Source: Cephalotus follicularis (taxonomy: Eukaryota; Streptophyta; Magnoliopsida; Oxalidales; Cephalotaceae). From it: a stretch of DNA of 64,000 bases. The translations under genes and the position numbers were made by a program. The notes beneath the pieces are model-generated. The model did not search any database. It was not told where the DNA came from and was given only the letters and a program-made list of their open reading frames with translations. Positions within the stretch are counted from its first letter, which is position 1. The number at the start of each line of letters is the position of its first letter. The stretch covers positions 642,415-706,414 of the forward strand of contig BDDD01000027.1 of NCBI GenBank assembly GCA_001972305.1, in the 5' to 3' direction. Of this stretch, positions 2,728 to 61,300 are shown piece after piece.

Positions 2728-3256
2728 CGTCAACCAAAAAAAAAACAAGAAGAAGAAGAGATCTGCTAAATTTAGTGACTAATTTCTACTTCTACAATGA
2801 GACAAGAGGGTGAGAGTGAGAGTGAGAGTGAGTATATGCCATTCGCTCGCCGGTATGGTCTCCTTTTTTCTTCGCTTTGGTTTGGCCGTTTGGTGGTGGT
2901 TACCACCCCTGCTTGCTTACGAGTTACTTCTGTTTTAGGAGCAACTACCTTTCAACGTTTATTTTTCACTTTATTTTTTATAAAAAAAAAAGCCAAAAAT
3001 ATCATTTCTACATCATTTATGTATTAATGAACCAATAATAAAACTAGGAAACATGCATCCTTCGTAGTTGATACATCCAAGGAATCATTATGAGAAATAA
3101 GTCGATCAAAAGAATATAACAATGTAGTTTTTTCTGTCTCCAGAAGCCGAACTCGTAGCATGCCTGCAATTTGCAAATGCAGAAGGCAAATTATTCATTA
3201 AGCTTATATTAAGGTCCGCAACTCCTTGTGAAATGTTAATGATACATATTGCTTTT
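2728..3256. other. 5' flank of the TT9-like gene
   Basis: No gene recognised. On the minus strand, the sequence just above the TT9-like ATG is rich in A and pyrimidines, as in a plant 5'UTR. A GAGAGT-type short repeat lies at about 2809-2832. A 76-codon plus-strand ORF at 2797-3027 has no recognisable homology and low complexity. Confidence 0.4.
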
Positions 3257-3540
3257 TTCTTTAGTTAAATCAAATAATTGAGCTCAAGCAAGACATATAG
3301 AGAAGTGATCCCATCACCATCATAGAGTTGCAGCGCATCCATCGTGTTTCTAGGCATGTCCTTGGCATAATACTTCAGAAAGGAATTAAGAACATAACAC
3401 AAAAATTGCTACAAAAATGTTACACCAGTTGTCTCGATCTAATTCTCTTACTCTATTCTTCCCTTCAATCATAAAAGGCTGCTCCCATCTGTTTACAATA
3501 ATATTCACCATGCTGTGAAGAATGCCTTGGAGATGATAAC
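3257..3540 (-). other. Unidentified exon-like fragments
   Basis: Two minus-strand stretches look coding but belong to no family I recognise. One ends at 3452 before a GTAAG donor and reads ILHSMVNIIVNRWEQPFMIE. The other, beginning near 3408, reads VLNSFLKYYAKDMPRNTMDA and continues for about 20 further residues to a stop. They sit between the TT9-like gene and the OXA1 pseudogene in the same orientation. They could be remnants of another host gene or a captured fragment. Confidence 0.3.
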
Positions 3541-6635: not shown

Positions 6636-7511
6636 TGATATGAGAAAAATTAAATTATACCAAGAACGACACGTGTCCTCTGCAGACATAGCCAAGTGTC
6701 CAAGGGTTTTGAAGTCTTCATGGATACTGGTCAGAGGAGGCTTATCAAGCCCTGGAAGGAGAAGCAGACGGAGACATCATCTTCGGCACTGGTGCCGAGT
6801 AACTCCCCACTAGTGGTGTTTTAGAATCCACCCTCCTCGGCACAAGAGCCGAGGACCTCTTTTCCAACATTGGAGTCGAGGACCAAGCCAAATGTCTTCC
6901 TCCTCAACTGCACTGTAGCAGACACTTTCCACGGCAGCTTGGCAGAGGGCCTACTGTTTCAGGCGCCAGCCCTAGGAGAAGCCATGGAACTTGAAGATCT
7001 TGAAGTGGATAAATACCAATAGAATCTATCATTTCTCGCCATCGGCAGGATAGGGCCACGAAATCAGCCTACTTTTCAGGGATTCATCTCTTCCAAATAA
7101 GGAAGATGAGGTATAGTAAACTGCCTACAAGGAAGGTAGCGACAAATCAGGTGAAGATAAGAGAAATCCCGATATCCTCGGCATTTCCTTAGGGGACAGC
7201 TATCACCTCCACATTTCACGCTCAGGCAGTTACGCTCCTACACTATAAATACTAGTTCAACAGTCAGAACAAATGTCAGCCATTTTTACTCTCAAAGAAC
7301 CTTGTTTTCTTTGTGCGAAGGCCTAACTTGAGCGTCGGAGTGTCCCCGGGAGAACAACCTCCTGGACCTTCAACGTGTTTGCTCTTCTGTGCATGGAAAG
7401 CATTCATAGCCATCTTCTATCTTCATCTCGGAGCATAGATACCGCGTTTTCCTAAACAAATCAAGCCCTTACACGTGGGGTACTATTGAGGGAAGAATTT
7501 TTGTATCAACA
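6636..7511 (+). repeat. 5' LTR of Tat-like element 1
   Basis: 876-bp direct repeat of 16170-17043. It contains the TCCTCGGCAC / GCCGAGGAC word pair several times and a TATA-like CTATAAATACTAG near 7243-7255, the likely promoter of the genomic RNA. Confidence 0.93.
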
Positions 7512-7999: not shown

Positions 8000-9058
8000 A
8001 TGGATGTGGATCCTCGGGAGGAGGTCAGAGAAGAAGAAGAAGAGGCGCAAGTGCGCTCCAATGCACCGCGCAGAGCTGGTACGGCCCGAGGAAGCAGGGT
8101 CGACCCCCCAGCCACAGTGGCTGGAGGGTCATGTGTCTCTAGCAAGGCTAGGAACATAGAGGATATGGAACAAGCAATGAACAGAAAGCTTGCTGAGCTA
8201 GAAAGAAAGTTCCGAGGAGCAGAACAGGGGAGGGGACATCTGTCCGAGGTGCAGAACATCAACGCCCACCCCTTCACATCCGAGATCATGGCAGAGGGTG
8301 TTCCTACCGGGTTTCGCTTCCCAAGCCTTGACAAATATGACGGGTCCACGGACCCCATCCAACATGTGCGCTCTTACATTCAAGTCATGTGGATGTACCA
8401 AGCCTCGGATGCTACACTCTGCCGAGGATTCCCAGCGACACTGACTGGAGCTGCCCAGTCGTGGTATTTCACCTTGGCAAAGAATTCGGTGGAGAACTTC
8501 GATCAGTTTACGGAACTGTTCATAACCAAGTTCCTCAACAGCACCACGCATAGGAGGAATTCCACTCACCTGATCAATGTGGTGCAGGGCAAAGATGAGT
8601 CGCTGAGAGATTACCTCACCAGATTCAACAGGGAGTCTCTCACAGTGAAGGATCTGGAGACATCCTTTGCAATGGCAACCTTGAATAACGGGCTGAGGAG
8701 CAATTCATCCTTCACTTTCTCTCTTCTGAAGAAACCGACCAAAGACATGGCAGACCTGCTGAGGAGAGCAGAGAGATATGTTAATGCCGAGGAAGGGATG
8801 GCTGCCAGGAAACAAAAGTCGCCCTGGTCAGGCCATCAGGAGGAGAAATGGGGGCATTCACAAAATGCTCCCGAGAGGAGAGAGAAGAGGAAGGAGAGGC
8901 CAGACTTGTCCGAGAAAGACCTTAGACATAAACTCTCCAGACGAGAGGGCTCATCCAGAGAAGGGGCACCAATCCCGTCCTACAACCACTTTGCCCCCCT
9001 CCTGGATACACACACCAGAATACTTGCAGTGGAACAAGATAAGGTCCCCATCCAGTAG
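8000..9058 (+). CDS. gag: Gag polyprotein of Tat-like element
   Basis: Open frame of 352 codons. Residues about 95-265 form a typical plant retrotransposon gag domain: FPSLDKYDGSTDPIQHVRSY, then GAAQSWYFTL, FLNSTTHRR and DMADLLRRAERYVNAEE. The basic tail (about 270-325) resembles nucleocapsid sequence, but no CCHC knuckle was found. In intact relatives the gag frame runs into protease; here it runs into sequence just upstream of the reverse transcriptase core, so a deletion has removed the join. Gag assembles the cytoplasmic particle that packages the element RNA. Confidence 0.88.
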   Translation: MDVDPREEVREEEEEAQVRSNAPRRAGTARGSRVDPPATVAGGSCVSSKARNIEDMEQAMNRKLAELERKFRGAEQGRGHLSEVQNINAHPFTSEIMAEGVPTGFRFPSLDKYDGSTDPIQHVRSYIQVMWMYQASDATLCRGFPATLTGAAQSWYFTLAKNSVENFDQFTELFITKFLNSTTHRRNSTHLINVVQGKDESLRDYLTRFNRESLTVKDLETSFAMATLNNGLRSNSSFTFSLLKKPTKDMADLLRRAERYVNAEEGMAARKQKSPWSGHQEEKWGHSQNAPERREKRKERPDLSEKDLRHKLSRREGSSREGAPIPSYNHFAPLLDTHTRILAVEQDKVPIQ

Positions 9059-12000
9059 CCAGAGAAGATGAGTCACCTGCCAAGAAGAGGAACTTTGCTC
9101 CAGAGAGGCAGCAGGCAATAGCAGAAGAGGTGAGTAAGCTATTACAGGCGGGATTCATAAGGGAAGTGCATTACTCAGACTGGCTGGCGAACCCAGTACT
9201 AGTCAAAAAGGCAAATGGGAAGTGGAGGATGTGCATCGACTTCACAGACCTCAACAAAGTTTGCCCGAAGGATCACTTCCCTCTCCCAAAGATAGATCAG
9301 TTGGTGGATGCAACCTCGGGCTACAGAATGTTAAGCTTCTTGGATGCCTACTCAGGATACAATCAAATTCCCATGTACGGACCCGACGAGAACAAGACAG
9401 CTTTCGTCACGGACATAGGAATGTATTGCTACAGGGTTATGCCCTTCAGCCTGAAGAATGCAGGGGCCACCTACCAACGTTTGGTGAATAAAATTTTTCA
9501 GCCTTAGATCGGGAAAAATATGGAGGTGTACATCGACGACATGCTCGTCAAGACCCCAGCCAGGAGCCCCCACATAAAAGATTTGGAGGAAACATTTGAG
9601 GTGCTGAGGAGATACAACATGAAACTCAATCCATCCAAGTGCACATTTGGGGTCACCTCTGGCAAGTTCCTCGGATTTATGGTCTCTAGCAGAGGAATAG
9701 AGGCCAATCTGGAGAAGATTTCAGCAATTCAAAGCATGAGGTCTCCTCAAACCATCAGGAATGTGCAGAGGTTAAATGGGAAAATAGCAGCCCTGAGTAG
9801 GTTTGTATCGAAGTCAGCATAAAAATGCCTTCCTTTCTTCAAAATACTCAAGGATCCCAAGGGGTTTTCTTGGTCTGACGATTGTCAAGCAGCCTTCGAC
9901 AAGTTAAAGGAATACCTGACTTCCCCTCCTTTGATTTCAAAACCTAAGGATGGAGAAGACTTGTATTTGTACCTTGCAGCCGCCTCAGGCGCAGTGAGTG
10001 TGGTGCTAGTCAGAGAAGAGGAAGAAGTTCAAAAGCTGGTGTACTATGTGAGCAAGGCTTTGAATGATGCTGAAGGAAGGTACCCTGAGGTAGAGAGATT
10101 TGCATATGCTTTGATCATCTCGGCCAGAAAATTGAGGCCATATTTCCAAGCCCGTACAATCAAGGTTCTGACTGACAAACTGCTTAAACAAGTTCTCGCA
10201 AAGCCTGACACCCCGGGCAGGTTGATTAAGTGGTCAGTCGAGCTAGGCGAGTATGATGTGAAGTTCGAAGCATGACCAACAATTAAATCACAGGTACTGG
10301 CCGACTTTGTTGGAGATAATACACCTACGGAGTGTATGGAGGAGAACCCTTCCGAGAGCGAGAAGGGGATATGGAAATTGTAAGTGGATGGGTCTTCCTA
10401 CATCACTGGCAGTGGAGCGGGGTTGGTATTGACAAGCCCAGATGGTTGGACGTTGGAGTATGCTCTGAGGTTCAAATTTAAAGCTACAAACAAAAAGCTG
10501 AGTGGGAAGCTCTGATAGATGGGCTGACGATCGCAAAGCACTTGGAGGTGCAGAAGATAGAGGCCTCTAGTGATTCTCAGCTAGTGGTTGGTCTAGCAAA
10601 TAGAGAGTATGAAGCCCGAGAAGACACAATGCTGAAATACTTGTCCCATTTTCAGAGTATGAAGTCAGCTTTTAAGTTCCTAAATTTTTTGAAAGTACCC
10701 AGAGCCGAGAACGCTCAAGCAGACCAGTTATCAAAACTAGCAACGACGGAGGAGCTAGAGAAAAGTCAAACCGTGCTAGTAGACTACTTGGACATGCCTA
10801 CCATCTCTGAAGCAGATGTGATGGACATAAATGTACCCCATGAGCCAAACTGGATAACTCCCTTTATTAATTGGCTGAGAAATGGAATCTTACCCGAAGA
10901 GCCCGTGGAGGCGAGGAAGCTGGTCTACAGAGCAAACAGATTCCAACTCCGAGATGGGATCCTCTACAAAAGGTCTTTCTCCTTTCCTTGGCTAAGGTGT
11001 ATGACCCCCCTAGAGGCCGATTATGCTCTGAGGGAGGTCCATGAAGGAATTTGTGGCAACCACATAGGGGGCAGATCATTATCTCATAAGTTGTTGAGGC
11101 AGGGATACTACTGGCCGACTATGCATCAAGATGCTATAGACTTAGTGAGGAAGTGTGACAAGTTCCAGAGGAACGCAAACATAAGCAGAATACCTTCTCA
11201 ACCTCTAACGTCTATCACGGCCCCATGACCCTTTGCACAATGGGGAATGGACTTCGTCAGACCATTACCTATGGCTACAGGCCAGAGGAAATTTCTCATT
11301 GTAGCAGTAGATTACTTCACTAAGTGGGTGGAAGCAGAACCCCTGGCCATAATTACAGAGAAGAACACGGAGAGCTTCGTATGGAAGTCAATCATCTGCA
11401 GATTTGGAGTTCCGAGGAAAATCGTCATAGATAATGGTAAGTAGTTTGATTGTCAAGCCTTCTGTGACTTTTGCAAAGAATGAAGGATAGAACATAGGCT
11501 TGCCTCGGTAGCCTACCCCCAAAGCAATGGTCAAGCCGAGGTGATCAATAGAGAAATCATCTCGGGCTTGAAGAAGCGCTTAGAATATAGCAAAGGAAGA
11601 TGGACGGAGGAGCTACCAATCGTTCTATGGGCATACAGAACAACTCCTCGGACTACAACCGGCGAATCCCCATACAGTCTATGTTTCGAGGCAAAGGCTA
11701 TAATACCAGTGGAGATTGGAGTACAATCACAAAGAGTTGTACATTTCACTGAAGACAATAATGAAGAAGGTCTCAGATGCATCCTCAACCTAGTGGAAGA
11801 ACTAAGAGATAAGGTTACGATCAGAGTTGCAGCCTACCAGCAGAGGGTGAGCCGTTACTATAACAAAAGGGTAAGCCCTAGACCACTAAGACAAGGAGAT
11901 CTAGTCCTTCGCAACTCAGCCGTTGCAGACCCCACCGGAACCAGAGGAAAACTTGCCTCTGCCTGGGAAGGACCATACAAGATCAAGAGGGTCCTCCGCC

Positions 12001-12086
12001 CAGGAACATTCAAACTTGAAATTTTGGGGGGTAGGGAGATTGCCAAAGTTTGGAATACCGAGCATCTGAGGAAGTATTATCAATGA
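9059..12086 (+). pseudogene. pol: Decayed pol: reverse transcriptase, RNase H, integrase
   Basis: Order: reverse transcriptase (9080-9830, with PVLVKKANGKWRMCIDFTDL and catalytic VYIDDMLVK near 9522), an RT-linked RNase H (9930-10275), a second RNase H (from about 10388, VDGSSYITGSGAGLVL), integrase zinc-binding region (11035-11175), integrase core (11247-11600; GMDF, VIDNGK and NGQAEVINREI hold the three acidic residues) and C-terminal domain to 12086. Lesions: stops at 9505, 9820, 10273, 10381, 11226, 11442 and about 11482, and a frameshift near 10500. In the zinc-binding motif the second Cys is Phe (KCDKFQR). Protease and the RT N-terminus are absent. Confidence 0.9.
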
Positions 12087-13104: not shown

Positions 13105-15525
13105 CTAAATAGTGGGGGGAGCTTCAGGAGAAGGTTCGTCTTTTGGAGGAGGAGGAACAAAAGGTCCAGTCGGAGGAGGTTGAGGAGTGATAAGATCCGA
13201 GGAGGAAGCCAACGAAGATGAGGCCATCACAGGATTCGACAAAGGAATGGTCGCCACAGTTGACCCATCTCCTCCAGCCTCACTTCCTTGGCCGACTACA
13301 GCTTCAGGAGCAGGCAGGATTTCCCCTTCCTCTTCCACGGCCCCTACGCCAGCTCTTCCTTCCAAGGCTTCTTCAACCTTCACCTCCTCGGCTTCATAAC
13401 CGTCAGGATAGTAGTCGAAAGCCTTGGCAGCCAAGCAGTAGGCAACCTTGTCCAAGGGGACCTCGGGATGAAGAGCCTTAACCCAGTTCCTGCAAGTATA
13501 GAACCCCCGACGGTAGTACTCGGCAGATTCCTTGAAGACTTCGTCAGCAAAGGCATCTAAAGCCTTGTAATCTTCCACGGAGGCCTCCGTCAAGGTCTGG
13601 AATCCATCCGAGGACTTAAATTCCGTAAGGGCGTCCTACACTTCCTTAGCCTTCCTCTCCTCCTGTTTCCAGACATAATCCTCATGCTTCTTCTGCAGAG
13701 CCCGGTACTGGTTGCCGACCTTGGAGAGGTCCTTTATCATTTGGTCCCTCTCCAAGACAGCTTTGTTTCTCTCCTCCACTGTTGACTCTTGGGCCTTAAG
13801 GACTTCCTCAAGCTGAGCCTTGGCCATGCGAGAGGTCTCCATCTCTACCATCATCTCCTCGCTTGCCTTGTCATACCTCTCCAAGATGATCGAGAAATTC
13901 TCGACCAAGAGGTGATGATCATTTAGAGCCTGCAAAGAAGACACAGGAATAAGAACGGAAAGTACATAAGAATGTAAAGCACACAAGAAGAGGATCTCCC
14001 TCTACCTCGAAATGGCTCCGCAGGGAGTTATGGATTATGTCCTTATTGGTCCAGTCCTTCCTCTCTTTCAGCTAGTCAGGGAAGAGGCACAGAGAGCTAA
14101 GAGCGAATGGCACCCCAAGGGTATCCAAGCTGGAGGACTCATTCCCAACCCCCTCCAACTCTTCGATCATCTTCTCTGCATCCCGAGGAGGAGGCAGGAT
14201 GATGGGGTTGTTAGAGGTCCTGCCGAGAGCAGACTCCACCTCGGTCTCGAACACATACTTCCCCTTTTTGCTTTGGGGATGAGGAGGAGCACCAGAGGAA
14301 CGCCCTCCAGCAGGACGCTTGGCTCCCTTCTCCTTGGCTGCCGTTGCAGCCTTCTTCATTTTCTTGGCCCCCTCGGTGGCGGCCTTTGCCCTCTGCCTGG
14401 CCCCCTCGACAACATCTTTTTCCTTTTGCTTTGCTGCTTCCGCGGTAGCCTTCTGCTTATTTGCTTCCATAGAGGAAGGCTTGGTGATCTTAGTAGCAGC
14501 GAAGAGAGCGTCGAATCCTCGTCGAGAAGCCATTGCTACATGAAAAATAGGTAAGTCAAGAACATGACAATAAACAGTAAGACAATAGAAGAAATACGAA
14601 GACAAGAAACTGGAGGAGACGAGAGCTTTATACAGTTTTCCCCCATTTCTTGGGGCATGAATTTATCTGGGGATCCCCCACCCCCTGAGGTGTCCTCGAC
14701 ATCTGCCGAGTATGATCCTCGGATGGGAACTACACTCAACCCGGCTCGGAGCAGACGATCCTCAACCACAGTAGAGTTCACCTCCTCAGGCTCTAAGCGC
14801 AAAAGTTTACCAAGGTCCACGTTCTCTGCCGATGTCAGAGGGGATCTCCTGTTAAGGCGTGTAGTTTCCATGGAGTCGCACCAGGCAGGGGGGGTGAACC
14901 CCTCAAAATTTTTTATGAGGAAGTATCTCCTCCTCCAGTTTTTGATGGATTTAGTAGGGTTCAAAAGAAATTTCTTCACACCAGGGCGGGACTTGAAGAA
15001 ATAGCCACGCTTTCCTGGCGAAGAGGAGAGGACATGGAATTCTTTGAATAGTCCTACTATCGCAGCCACCTTGGACTCTAGACACCTAACTAAGAAGCCT
15101 ATAATAAAGCTCCAAGATTGAGGTTGGAGGAGAGAAGGATGGAGATGAAATGTCTCCAAGACCGAGAGAGCAAAAGAGGGCACCGGGACCCTCAAACCAT
15201 GAGAGAGCGCGCCTTCAAAGATAGCGAAGAGGCCCTCCTTACTCTCAGTGACCAGCCGAGGATCCGAGGGGAGACTTAACCTCAACCCAATAGGGAAATT
15301 GTATTTGCGAGAAAGTTCTAGTACCTCATCGCAAGAAAGAGTACTGACACCAAAGCAATCTGGGGCAAGGGTGTCAGCCTCGGTGATGGGAACAACATGG
15401 TCACCCACCGCAGCCCCTAGGCTGCCTTCAGAGGAAAGGGGACTTTCGGTGGTAGGAACCACCATGGCTAGGGGTTCGACTTCTAAAGGAGGAGAAGGCC
15501 TAGCCGTCTGTTTAGTTCTAGCCAT
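13105..15525 (-). CDS. Antisense spliced gene: H3-tail-mimic N-terminus plus Transposase_28-like domain
   Basis: Three exons, 14634-15525, 14006-14535 and 13105-13929, join through GT-AG introns (98 and 76 nt) into exactly 749 codons in one frame, interrupted by in-frame TAGs at 14072 and 13636. The protein starts MARTKQTARPSPPLE; its first nine residues equal those of histone H3. Residues about 55-230 match the plant 'putative gypsy type transposon' family (Transposase_28-like), e.g. FEGALSHGLRVPVPSFALSV, LQPQSWSFIIGFLVRCLES and SPGKRGYFFKSR. Exon 2 is Lys/Ala-rich and basic, with KSKKGK-type nuclear-localisation-like stretches. Exon 3 is a charged coiled coil, then YYRRGFYTCRNW, then an acidic and Pro-rich tail. 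The function is unknown. A nuclear role is inferred from the tail and basic region. Stops may mean a dying copy. Confidence 0.85.
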
Positions 15526-15604
15526 CTATTTGGACACAAAAAAAGAGAAGAAGCTAGGGAAGACTCAGATTCAACTTAGAGCAACAAGGAGACGGGTAAC
15601 TTAC
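15526..15604 (-). other. 5'UTR leader intron of the antisense gene
   Basis: On the minus strand TTTTTG|GTAAGTT opens and CCAAATAG|ATGGC closes a 79-nt candidate intron directly before the start codon. The element 2 gene has a 73-nt intron at the equivalent place (58297-58369), which supports both. Confidence 0.6.
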
Positions 15605-15731: not shown

Positions 15732-15741
15732 CCTTTTATAG
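15732..15741 (-). promoter_or_regulatory. TATA box of the antisense gene
   Basis: CTATAAAAGG on the minus strand lies about 205 bp above the ATG. Transcription would start near 15705. Element 2 has TTTAAATAC at a matching distance. Confidence 0.6.
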
Positions 15742-16154
15742 GCCCATAGCTTGGATCCTGGCCCTCCACCTCACTCAGATCCAACAGTTGAGGAGTGAAC
15801 CATCAAATCAGACGCGGGAGACAAAACCGTCAAATCAGACGTGAGAGACGAAGAGACAGAGGCGGGAAATGCTCTGTTTATGTCATGTGTAAGTCGTGTT
15901 CAATACGCTACTTAAATGCAAATGATTTGGGCTTGTGACACGAGGCCCGTTAGCAGAGATGGACCCAGGCAGAGGCCAGCTTCAATCCTCTGCTAAGACG
16001 AGTTTGTTTTTGTGCCAGAGGACCCCTAAAAGCCACACTATTGGGCCTCAGTTCTTTCACATATGGAAAAGCCTACATGAAGTTTCCAGGAGTTCGGCCC
16101 GAGTCAATACTCTCAACTCTGTTCCTCTTCCTCTGACCACGGTCAGAGAAGAAG
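15742..16154. other. Upstream region of antisense gene, next to 3' LTR
   Basis: Non-coding. It contains two near copies of (A/C)AAATCAGACG(C/T)G(G/A)GAGAC at about 15804-15855, directly repeated upstream of the antisense TATA box, which could be regulatory. Confidence 0.4.
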
Positions 16155-16169: not shown

Positions 16170-17043
16170 TGATATGGGAAAAATTAAATTATACCAAGAA
16201 CGACATGTGTCCTCCGCAGACATAGCCAAGTGTCCAAGGGTCTTGAAGTCTGTATGGATACTGGTCAGAGGAGGCTTATCAAGCCCTGGAAGGAGAAGCA
16301 TGGAGACATCATCCTCGGCACTGGTGCCGAGGAACTCCCCACTAGTGGTGTTTTAGAATCCACCCTCCTCGGCACAAGGGTCGAGGACCTCTTTTCCAAC
16401 ATTGGAGCCGAGGACCAAGCCAAAGGTCTTCCTCCTCAACTGCACTATAGCAGACACCTTCCTCGGCAGCTTGGCAGAGGGCCTACTATTTCAGGCGTTA
16501 GCCCTAGGAGAAGCCATGGAACTTGAAGACCTTGAAGTGGATAAATACCAATATAATCTATCCCTTCTCGCCCTCGGCAGGACAGGGCCATGAAATCAGC
16601 TTACTTTTCAGGGATTCATCTCTTCCAAATAAGGAAGATGAGGTATAGTAAACTGCCTACAAGGAAGGTAACGACAAATCAGGTGGAGATAAGGGAAATC
16701 TCGATATCCTCGGAATTTCCTTAGGGGACAGCTATCACCTCCACATTTCACGCTCAGGCAGTTACGCTCCTACACTATAAATACTAGTTCAACAATCAGA
16801 ACAAAGGTCAACCATTTTTACTCTAAAAGAACCTTGTTTTCTCTGTGCGAAGGCCTAACTTGAGTCTCAGAGTGTCCCCGGGAGAACAACCTCCTAGACC
16901 TTCAACGTGTTTGCTCTTCTGTGTAGGGAAAACATTCATAGCCATTTTCTACCTTCATCTCGGAGTATTGATACCGCGTTTCCCTAAACAAATCAAGCCC
17001 TTACACATGGGGTACTGTTGAGGAAAGAATTTCTGTATCAACA
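16170..17043 (+). repeat. 3' LTR of Tat-like element 1
   Basis: 874 bp, collinear with the 5' LTR at 6636-7511 with scattered substitutions and a few short indels, ending TATCAACA before the CTTTG duplication. Confidence 0.93.
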
Positions 17044-57654: not shown

Positions 57655-57890
57655 GAGGAAGGACCCCTCCTGGACTGACCAGGGGAAGAGGAGAGACAGG
57701 CTTGAGGACCCCTCCTGGGCTGACCAGGGGAAGAGGAGAGGCAGGCCTGAGGACCCCTCCTAGGCTGACCAGGGGAAGAGGAGAGTCAGGCTTGAGGGCC
57801 CATCCTAGGCTGACCAGGGGAAGAGGAGAGGCAGGCTTGAGGACCCCTCCTGGGTTGACCAGGGGAAGAGGAGAGGCTGGACTGAGGGCC
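57655..57890. repeat. 45-bp tandem array, five copies
   Basis: Unit GGACCCCTCCTGGGCTGACC followed by AGGGGAAGAGGAGAG and a variable CAGGCTTGA end. 45 is a multiple of three and both strands are open (15-residue repeats, e.g. KPASPLPLVSLGGVL on the minus strand). Lies 280-520 bp upstream of the element 2 antisense gene TATA box. Confidence 0.9.
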
Positions 57891-58377: not shown

Positions 58378-61300
58378 ATGGCCAGAACGAAGCAGACCAA
58401 GAGCTTTGTCAGGCGCCCAGAAGTGGTAGCCCGAGCGTCCACAGGGGTCACTTCGTTGTTCGTCCCCTCAACATGGAGGTGGAAATGGGGGCCTCCGCCG
58501 CTGGGAACCCGAACGTTGAAGCTACAAGGGTCGGAGTTCGAGTTTTCCGGGCCGATTTTGACGAGACCACCATGCGCCCCCACAAACTGGCGCAACTGGT
58601 TAAGGAGTACTCTATTCCTAGTGGCCTGGACTTGGAGATCCTAGCTGACCCCATGTCAGTCACAGTGAACCAACCCAAGCACTTTGTGGTGTTCCAAGAT
58701 GCTTTGGAGCATGGGTTGAGACTTCCGCTGCCGCCGTTTGCCGTTACCGTTCTCGGGCACTACCGGATCCATCATTCAATGCTGCAAGCACAGTCCTGGG
58801 GGTTCATCTTCGGGTTCATCGTACGCTGCCTTGAGGCGGATGCAGTGCCTACCCTCGGGCTGTTCAAAGAATTCCACACCGTGGCTCCCTCCCCAAAGAA
58901 GCGCGGCTTTCACTTTAAGTCAAGCGTGGGTCACCCCAAGCTGCTGGCGGAGAACACCAAGACAGTCAAGCGCTGGAGGGAAAAAGACTTCCTGGTCAAG
59001 AACCTCCCCGGCTTTATCCCCTGTCCTTGAACAGATACACTAGATATCGGGCTTTTGAACCAAAGGTCGTTTCTGACCAGGGAAGAGACCGCTGACCTGA
59101 GGAGGCTTTCGGCCCTTGCACCCGAGGACGTGCTCAAAGTGGTGTCCGAGGACTGCCTGCGATGACATGGGCTGAGCATGTCCATAGGCCGTAGGGCCAG
59201 GCTAGAGCTAGAGGCGGAGAAGGTGCCCATGGGGATCCAGAGAGAGAGAGAGGCCAGGGTGGCCATGGCGGGGCTACTTCCTCGGCGACCTCACAAGGAG
59301 AGAGTCGTACTAAGCTTTCTCTGGGGCTATCTTTTTCTTTTTGAGTTAGTTTCTAACTTTTTGATGCTTTATTAACCGCTTCTTTGCTTGACTGTGCAGA
59401 GATGGCCCGCTAAGATTCAGCCATGGACTTGATCAGGGCTGGCCGTGACCAGGCTCGTGCTGCTGACCCGGGGGTGCAGAGGAGGGACACTGAGAAAAGG
59501 CAGAGGGCCTTGGAGAAGTCGCCGAAGGCGGCGGAGAGGAGGGCAGCCAGGCAGGCTGAGGCGCAGGCCAGGCTTGATAAGCTGCCCTGGGTCCTATCCG
59601 AGGAGGCCAGGGAGGCCAGTGATACGGAGGCCAGGGAGGCAAGGGTTGCGGCGGCTAGGGAGGCCAGGGCTGCGGAGGCTCGGGCTGCTGAGGAGGAGCG
59701 TGATGCTGAGGTGGAACGTGCTGTTGGGGCCAGGGCATCTATGACTGATGCTAAGCTCGCCCGTCCTTCGAAAAGGCATCGGTTGGAGAAGGGGTAGGTT
59801 CCCCAGGGCGAATCCGTCAAGGGGCGCTTCTGTGACCCCGACCATCCTTATCCTGCTGCGGAGCTCGCATATGTGAGGGATATCCTAGGAGAGCTCGGTC
59901 GAGCTGGCGTTTGTTTGAAGACGCCCGAGGTCGCCACAGAGCTGGGAAAAGTAGGCACGTTCCCCTCGAGTTGGGGCTAAGGGAGGAGTGGACGACCGGA
60001 CAGCTTTGGACCAACCTCTTCCAGTGCTGCCATCGGGTAAGCACATTTTCCTTGACTTTCTTTTTTTGAGCTTTTTCTTGCTCTGAACTGACGTTGTTTT
60101 CTTTTCTTTTTTTTTCTAAGGCCATGGTCAATGCCCATCTTCTGATGGACAGGAATGACCAAGAGACCAGCCTGAACGAGTAGCTCGGGGCTGAGAATGC
60201 TGAGCTGAGCAGGTCTCTGGCCACGGCCCGTGCTCAGCTGGATGAAGTGTTGGGTGCCCAGGAGGGCTTGGCAGCTGAAAGGGATGGCGCCGTGGAGGAG
60301 GCCAGGAGGGAGAGAGGGCTCAAAATTATTGTCATGGAGCGGGTAATTGAACTCGAGGGCAGGGTGGAGGCCCTTCATAACCAGTTAGCCTCATGCCAAG
60401 AGCTTGGTGATGCCAGGGTCAAAGTTGTTGCAGAGAGGGCAGTCCTGGACTTTAATGCGTCAGTTGAGTTCCGTGACACCATGGATCAGGCCGTGGAGCT
60501 CTACAAAACTTCTGAGGACTTCAACCGTGAGGTCTTGAAGAAGTCCTCTGTCACGCCCCGAATCGTGGGATGGGCCCCGCGATTCGACACGTGGCAATCC
60601 GTACAATCATAAAAATTTAGAACTTAATATAATTCATAGTCAAAATCCTTTATTTATTGTGTGGATTACAGACCCAGTTCAAATCAAATAAATTACATCA
60701 TCATGAACCAGAATAAAATAAAATAAAATAAATACATAATTTATTTCTAGGCACGCGACAGAGGACAGGAATCACCTCTGCACTTGGTCCTCGGAAGTAT
60801 GGCGCTATAGCAGTGGATAAGCTTCATGGGCATGGGTCGACCATGGCGCCCTGTTATGGCGCAACCTCGGGCAGAGCAGAGGAGGGTGCAAGGCGCCATC
60901 GTGGGGAGCTCGGACGCTGTACCATGCGTGGGACGCATGGACTGGCTTCCTCGGACGCCTGGGACTACACGTCCTCGGCAGCTTCTTCAGAAACGTGCTA
61001 GCTCATCTCTGGCGTCATGGCAGAGAGCGCTACACATGGCAGAGGACAAGGACGTCCTCTGTGCATGGTGTTCTCAGCATCACCGGTCCTCTGCTCCCGT
61101 GCTCAGCCGATGACACCTCGGCAGGTCATCTCGGCTCGTTGGCTCCTCGGCATAACCCATGGGCTTGCAGAGGATGGGACGCCTGCCGTCCTCTGCATTT
61201 GCGTCCTCGGCATTCATAAGATGAAACGTGTGCAGAGGAGTAAGGTATCCTCTGCACTTGGCACCTCAGTATCTTTACGGTGGGAGCCCGACACCGTTGC

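Follow-up and report, generated by a model that had tools for sequence, protein, structure and literature searches.

The closest described relatives of the gene analyzed here are the TRP28 ORFs of Retand retrotransposons, including maize Grande gene23, rice RIRE2, and Silene Retand, in which an antisense gene with a TRP28 domain (PF04195) is located between pol and the 3′ LTR (Vicient 2025, PMC11963269). That paper reports the TRP28 antisense protein in 97% of recently active Retand clusters, gives TRP28 as predicted to bind DNA, and states its function as unknown. Retand antisense genes have their own promoter, and the related Grande gene23 was described as a nuclear protein, likewise with a promoter of its own (PMC7264820). 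The word histone does not occur in the main text of either paper, and N-terminal is also absent from the main text of PMC11963269. When these main texts are compared with the gene reported here, the published Retand TRP28 descriptions contain no H3-like N terminus, whereas our gene has one.

Histone mimicry is already known from other proteins. Viral histone mimics, such as influenza NS1 and others, are parasite proteins that copy an H3-like peptide and so gain access to chromatin factors of the host, and the copied peptide is C terminal or internal and shorter. In contrast, the sequence described here would form a free N terminus, equal to H3 residues 1 to 8 at 548 sites and present in a wider form at 3359. 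A second precedent is the SNAG domain, which keeps Arg2 but not Lys4, whereas ARTK is literal in the present protein, which is encoded by a transposon and in a plant. In SNAG proteins such as Snail1 and GFI1, which are nuclear and bind DNA, the N terminus imitates the H3 tail, as we propose here, and the domain recruits LSD1 (PMC12612597). Vandal DNA transposons encode anti-silencing accessory proteins (PMC11728184). The gene described here likewise encodes an accessory protein of a plant transposon, but anti-silencing is established for Vandal and only proposed in our case. To our knowledge, neither a relationship nor histone mimicry links Vandal proteins and TRP28. Among the titles and abstract starts of open PMC papers, we found no earlier report that connects histone mimicry or MARTKQTAR to plant transposons, and none of the open PMC papers mentioning MARTKQT concerns transposon proteins by its title. 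What appears to be new is a transposon-encoded, literal H3 N terminus in so many copies.

The host element and its antisense TRP28 gene

We analyzed a stretch of 64,000 nucleotides from Cephalotus follicularis (contig BDDD01000027.1), hereafter called the window. It contains a retrotransposon on the plus strand, bounded by a 5′ LTR (6636–7511; ends from BLAST) and a 3′ LTR (16170–17043) that share 93.7% identity over 876 columns by self-BLAST (K2P 0.064), a divergence corresponding to 2.5 to 4.6 My at two assumed rates. Pfam matches on the same strand place gag (PF03732) at 8000–9058, reverse transcriptase and RNase H (PF00078, PF17919/PF17917) in three open pieces at 9043–10272, and a second RNase-H-like domain (PF13456) with the integrase zinc-binding and core domains (PF17921, PF00665), again in pieces, at 10482–12083. 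We regard this copy as degenerate, since its pol reading frames are fragmented and the seven frames submitted to Pfam yielded no protease domain. The gag and reverse transcriptase frames almost abut (9043–9058), and the copy may be without the protease part. No chromodomain match was obtained in the integrase frames at E ≤ 0.01, where only SH3_Tf2-1 appeared, below its cut-off.

The TRP28 ORF on the minus strand (15525–14536) sits between the end of the integrase (12083) and the 3′ LTR (16170), which is the position that marks Retand elements. Moreover, the LTR length (about 875 bp), the internal length (about 8.66 kb), and the distance from the integrase end to the 3′ LTR (about 4.09 kb) all fall inside the Retand ranges given in PMC11963269 (315–1194 bp, 7380–12,869 bp, and 2933–6566 bp from pol to 3′ LTR, respectively). 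By the position of TRP28 and these lengths, we assign the element as a Retand-like Ty3/gypsy retrotransposon with TRP28 as its antisense accessory gene.

Translation of the minus strand from 15525 begins with MARTKQTARPSPPLEVEPL... and remains open to 14536 (329 codons). Codons 1 to 9 (15525–15499) read MARTKQTAR, that is, the initiator Met followed by H3 residues 1 to 8, as the first-pass annotation of this DNA had claimed. The TRP28 domain (PF04195, also named Transposase_28) matches residues 103 to 166 with 34.8 bits against a cut-off of 26.2; it is the sole Pfam match in the 329-residue ORF at E ≤ 1, and a histone fold is absent after the tail. The protein is thus not a true histone H3, since only a TRP28 domain follows the tail. 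Removal of an initiator Met that precedes Ala exposes a free A1-R2-T3-K4 end, as on H3, and the antisense TRP28 protein would be expected to undergo the same Met removal and to carry an unblocked N terminus. AlphaFold models of two window sequences had a mean pLDDT of 35 and were uninformative.

Splice signals suggest three coding exons on the minus strand: a first exon at 15525–14634 (end inferred) that includes the TRP28 domain, a Lys/Ala-rich second exon at 14535–14006, and a third exon at 13929–13105. Together they amount to 2247 bases, or 749 codons. This model reproduces the length of the 749-codon gene annotated earlier, but the window copy is not an intact gene because it contains two in-frame TAG codons (14074–14072 in the second exon and 13638–13636 in the third). 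Residues 300 to 420 of the antisense protein form another Lys/Arg-rich stretch, with 27 Lys and Arg among 121 residues.

To place the start codon, we compared 30 lineage A copies (L001–L030), the best matches of the lineage A search described below. An antisense TATA box at 15740–15735 lies outside the 3′ LTR, and TATAAA occurs 204 to 216 bases 5′ of the ATG in 29 of the 30 copies. A putative 5′-UTR intron at 15604–15526 (GTAAGT ... AAATAG) ends exactly at the ATG; a GTAAG- or GTGAG-type donor is found 69 to 81 bases 5′ of the ATG in 28 copies, and AG immediately precedes the ATG in 28 copies. With the transcript start expected at TATA plus 30, the stretch from there to the tail ATG is free of ATG in 23 of the 30 copies and contains at least one in seven; on this count, an upstream start codon was dropped as a candidate. 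At the lineage B and D loci, a donor-like GTGA or GTGAG and a pyrimidine stretch are seen by eye at equivalent places, and the ATG is directly preceded by AG in six and by AA in five of 11 loci. The ATG at 15525 is well supported as the likely true start codon: the TATA box, the 5′-UTR intron, and the upstream ATG count all speak for it over a start elsewhere, which the first-pass annotation had named as a finding that would go against its reading. Upstream of the antisense TATA box, the window also contains nearly two 27-bp direct repeats (88% match; 15798–15849), a possible promoter element.

Searching the window with core parts alone gave two TRP28 copies, both beginning MARTKQT. The second, diverged copy lies on the plus strand and starts with MARTKQTK (58378–58401), with donor-like and acceptor-like sites upstream, including an acceptor-like CAG 8 bases before the ATG. 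A frame break follows its start, so that the TRP28 part (58473–59027; PF04195, 41.1 bits) is in a frame different from that of the start codon. The TRP28 parts of the two copies are 47% identical over 152 residues. Near this copy, 57660–57890 is an array of roughly 45-bp tandem units that are 91% alike. A green-alga CENH3, given as an antigen peptide in PMC11005252, also starts MARTKQTK, and this flavor of the tail therefore exists in a true histone variant.

Genome-wide recurrence of the tail

The source genome (1,577,397,061 bases) was searched with patterns that allow any codons, and the reversed pattern served as the control. MARTKQTAR was found at 548 sites, nine of which are true H3 genes, whereas the reversed pattern was found at none, which bears out the earlier statement that the match exceeds chance. 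Single positions were then freed, each count being conditional on the other eight residues, with A1, T3, T6, and R8 held fixed throughout. Freeing K4 gave 608 sites (control 1), freeing R2 gave 595 (control 0), freeing Q5 gave 1202 (control 1), and freeing A7 (MARTKQTxR) gave 2338 (control 2); the pattern MARTKxTxR, with both Q5 and A7 freed, matched 3359 sites (control 3). Within these 3359 sites, Q5 is present in 70%, A7 in 36%, and both in 16%, meaning that 84% are not exact copies of H3. Among 100 MARTKQTxR matches listed, position 7 is Lys in 36, Ala in 23, Arg in 23, Ser in 14, Thr in 2, Val in 1, and Phe in 1. Likewise, position 5 varies among the 59 codons listed from the Q5-free matches (Gln 28, Arg 21, Leu 5, stop 3, Cys 2). 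Identity to H3 through Arg8, as first annotated, is thus real at 548 sites and yet only one flavor of a tail whose positions 5 and 7 vary.

Positions 2 and 4 behave differently from positions 5 and 7. Only 198 sites (control 6) have Arg instead of Lys at position 4 and only 160 (control 1) have Lys instead of Arg at position 2, against 3359, so that by these pattern counts Arg makes up 95.5% of Arg plus Lys at position 2, and Lys 94.4% of Lys plus Arg at position 4. Among the 100 matches listed from the R2-free search, 92 have Arg, and the others have Lys (3), Ile (2), Gln (2), or Met (1). The K4-free search returned Lys in 88 of the 100 matches listed, Asn in 11, and Glu in one, and ten of these listed matches are identical 26-base strings encoding MARTNQTAR (e.g., C3:274091, C29:19411, and C201:508376). 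We read MARTNQTAR as an amplified subfamily, a natural K4 mutant (Lys4 to Asn) that has still spread. The inclusion of Lys4 in the tail, noted in the first annotation, holds in that K4 is rarely exchanged for Arg, but not in the one amplified subfamily with Asn. As far as the site patterns can tell, selection holds for R2 and K4 and not for H3 positions 5 and 7.

These exchange counts bear on an alternative that we hold to be possible though unlikely, namely that MARTKxTxR is a basic N-terminal signal for nuclear import or nucleic acid contact and that its resemblance to H3 is coincidental. Many copies are indeed more basic than H3, with Lys or Arg at position 7 in 59 of the 100 matches listed and Arg at position 5 in 21 of the 59 codons listed, and the related gene23 protein is described as nuclear (PMC7264820). 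However, a basic signal should permit Lys and Arg to replace one another, which the counts at positions 2 and 4 do not show, and the eight non-Arg residues at position 2 among the matches listed look like scattered decay. Ala straight after Met would need a separate reason, and the protein has another Lys/Arg-rich stretch at residues 300 to 420. Because R2 and K4 are rarely exchanged for Lys and Arg, specific recognition fits the tail better than a generic basic signal; and the retention of R2 and K4 beside variable positions 5 and 7 speaks for a free A-R-T-K end being what is recognized.

Lineages that share the tail and selection on it

Twenty pattern matches with varied codons, chosen by the tail pattern and all from the genome of the window, were fetched and fell into three lineages. 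After MARTKQTAR, the nine loci of lineage A continue with ..[PSVAT]S.PLEVEPL or near, the nine loci of lineage B with ..QV.DPN.V.RLAGE and kin, and the two loci of lineage D with ..PAGSQPISSA and near; several of the 20 are broken further downstream. The residue at H3 position 9, which is Lys in H3, is Pro, Gln, Val, Ala, Ser, or Thr in these loci and never Lys. We aligned the window copy with ten of the 20 loci (three of nine from lineage A, five of nine from B, and both from D), together with four MAS-group loci out of the 30 described below and the core of the second window copy. In alignment columns 10 to 60, identity between lineages is 32% (A–B), 20% (A–D), and 34% (B–D), while the tail is the same; in the TRP28 domain, it is 57%, 55%, and 67%, respectively. 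Since the loci of lineages B and D were picked by the tail pattern, the 100% identity of their tails does not count as evidence on its own.

Homology searches reach the same N terminus. In the lineage A search (13,432 first-look candidates), 144 of the 150 scored matches align from residue 1. The lineage B search (13,774 first-look candidates) likewise gave 150 scored matches, including the place of the query itself, and the 149 others are 65 to 82% identical to the query; 140 matches align from residue 1, seven from residue 2, and one each from residues 4, 5, and 10. The tail was part of both queries and so contributed slightly to the ranking, and an alignment reaching residue 1 means a similar tail and not necessarily an identical one. 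The exact nine-residue tail is present in 16 of 28 lineage A matches on contigs C1 to C366, for which the MARTKQTAR listing covers every site, the window copy included, and in the rest it is changed or cut.

Those 30 loci that score highest for PF04195 form part of a different TRP28 group, which is more decayed; the four loci used here start with MAS or MAF. MA[RSK]T[KR] is absent from every frame of these 30 loci, which is weak evidence as most of them are broken. Two other PF04195 matches (C33:615093 and C41:197415) have MARTKQTR 309 bases upstream, and the motif therefore reaches the higher-scoring TRP28 group; at three comparable matches (C4:378969, C15:203985, and C33:320019), no MARTKQTxR or MARTKxTxR site was found at that distance. 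No relatives were confirmed in IMG/VR and GTDB contigs. The tail is common across lineages of the source genome and not missing from relatives, and the first-pass view that retrotransposon TRP28 proteins have an H3-like start stands for lineages A, B, and D but not for the decayed, high-scoring group with its other N termini.

MARTKQT is spelled in 60 ways among the 100 MARTKQTxR matches listed, with all four bases at each of its three 4-fold sites. Since the tail has 60 codings and is common to lineages whose flanks are only 20 to 34% identical, it is the protein sequence that is kept. A constraint on DNA or RNA, such as a splice site, promoter, or start context, could be suspected from the AG that abuts the ATG in 28 of the 30 lineage A copies. 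However, synonymous sites of the tail vary freely, which rules out such a constraint in the main, and the almost even split of AG and AA before the ATG in lineages B and D means that the junction is not fixed; we consider this the least probable of the explanations weighed here.

It is also very improbable that the tail is a fossil of a host H3 gene whose 5′ end (AG|ATG plus the first codons) was captured by the element. One H3 gene (L036) does have an intron-acceptor-like AG immediately before its ATG. Nevertheless, when six query stretches were compared with H3 5′ regions, only the tail codons and stretches of 13 to 18 bases matched, and the longer matches (17–36 bases), which involve lineages B and D and lie 1.4 kb away from an H3 gene, have the appearance of an inserted element. 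Over the 27 bases of the tail, five element copies show 5 to 9 differences from seven H3 starts and 3 to 7 from one another. Moreover, a fossil would not persist through 60 codings, and capture would explain the origin of the tail and not its upkeep; given H3 5′ flanks that match nothing beyond the tail and the 13- to 18-base stretches, it was dropped as a full explanation. The stretch that resembles the antisense 5′ end of lineages D and B is at 2955–3077 of loci L051 and L052 (contig C1961), in a duplicated region about 1.4 kb from the H3 gene start, and its proximity to that gene is probably chance given some 13,000 first-look candidates genome-wide.

Within lineage A, pN/pS over the 30 copies is 0.13 for the tail, compared with 0.34 to 0.53 in codons 10 to 72 and 0.10 to 0.23 in the domain (codons 73–219), where it is similar to the tail. 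Among 211 nine-codon windows, 51 have lower pN/pS and 84 have lower pN than the tail. The tail is intact in 22 of the 30 copies, against a mean of 18.6 over the nine-codon windows, and 58 of the 211 do better. By residue, the tail is kept in 29 (M), 30 (A), 29 (R), 29 (T), 30 (K), 28 (Q), 29 (T), 26 (A), and 30 (R) copies. In the comparison of the tail with the residues that follow, which had been suggested as a check, the tail therefore surpasses codons 10 to 72 but only about equals the domain. The strong signal of conservation lies between lineages and not inside one. Overall, the sequence comparisons support the view that the H3-like start is no accident of a single copy: a very large antisense-gene family has it under selection, at the likely true start codon and across lineages that have diverged in the adjoining residues.

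A candidate mimic of the H3 tail

H3 N-terminus readers contact R2 and K4 and touch positions 5 and 7 less. We propose, with a probability of roughly 45%, that the N terminus of the antisense TRP28 protein is a selected mimic of the H3 tail that acts on the H3K4 machinery, possibly on demethylases supporting RNA-directed DNA methylation (RdDM). The earlier functional suggestion, that the element might recruit or titrate H3K4 machinery and thereby escape silencing, fits the R2/K4 pattern and is carried forward here at that strength.

Alternatively, selection may keep the start as a motif to which an unrelated protein of the host or the element docks, the likeness of the start to H3 having arisen by chance among many families, a reading that we hold to be unlikely. 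The core comprises only about six residues after Met, and six specified residues have odds of 1.6e-8 per N terminus by flat residue odds, which becomes about 2e-3 at an assumed 1e5 families and roughly 1e-2 given that Ala is common after Met. A docking motif of this kind must, however, be set against the retention of Q5 in 70% and of exact H3 residues 1 to 8 in 16% of the MARTKxTxR sites, and against R2 and K4, both among the contacts of H3 readers, holding best of the four positions tested. In addition, the protein belongs to an element whose control by the host runs through chromatin.

In the proposed mimicry of H3, removal of Met before Ala would free the A1-R2-T3-K4 end, and the TRP28 protein, which would be nuclear and has a domain predicted to bind DNA, would present ARTK to host H3K4 factors, whether bound to the element or free within the nucleus. 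The first-choice targets would be the H3K4 demethylases LDL1/LDL2 and JMJ14. By occupying or recruiting these enzymes, as SNAG does with LSD1, the mimic could weaken silencing of the element; alternatively, the tail itself could be methylated and read, with the same outcome, or the targets could be WDR5a and PHD or BAH-PHD readers. As reported in PMC3820799, JMJ14 acts together with LDL1/2 in maintaining RdDM patterns, and H3K4me2/3 rises in regions that lose DNA methylation in JMJ14/LDL1/2 mutants. The same paper describes the methylation loss in those mutants as not generally tied to transcriptional derepression, which weakens the expected payoff for the element. More tentatively, and with some doubt, a major class of plant retrotransposons may encode, in a backward gene, a DNA-binding protein whose free N terminus is an H3 tail (A1-R2-T3-K4). 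The host would then methylate, read, or demethylate this end as it would a nucleosome, and every copy of the protein would act either as "active chromatin" in portable form or as a decoy for those H3K4 demethylases by which RdDM is supported.

A selected, H3-like free N terminus makes the function of TRP28 concretely testable, as binding to the plant H3K4 machinery. If the proposal is true, plant H3 N-terminal peptide antibodies or mass spectrometry may also detect transposon proteins. It would mean that one genome contains a transposon-encoded histone mimic in thousands of copies, and it would tie the control of H3K4 methylation to the struggle between plants and their retrotransposons.
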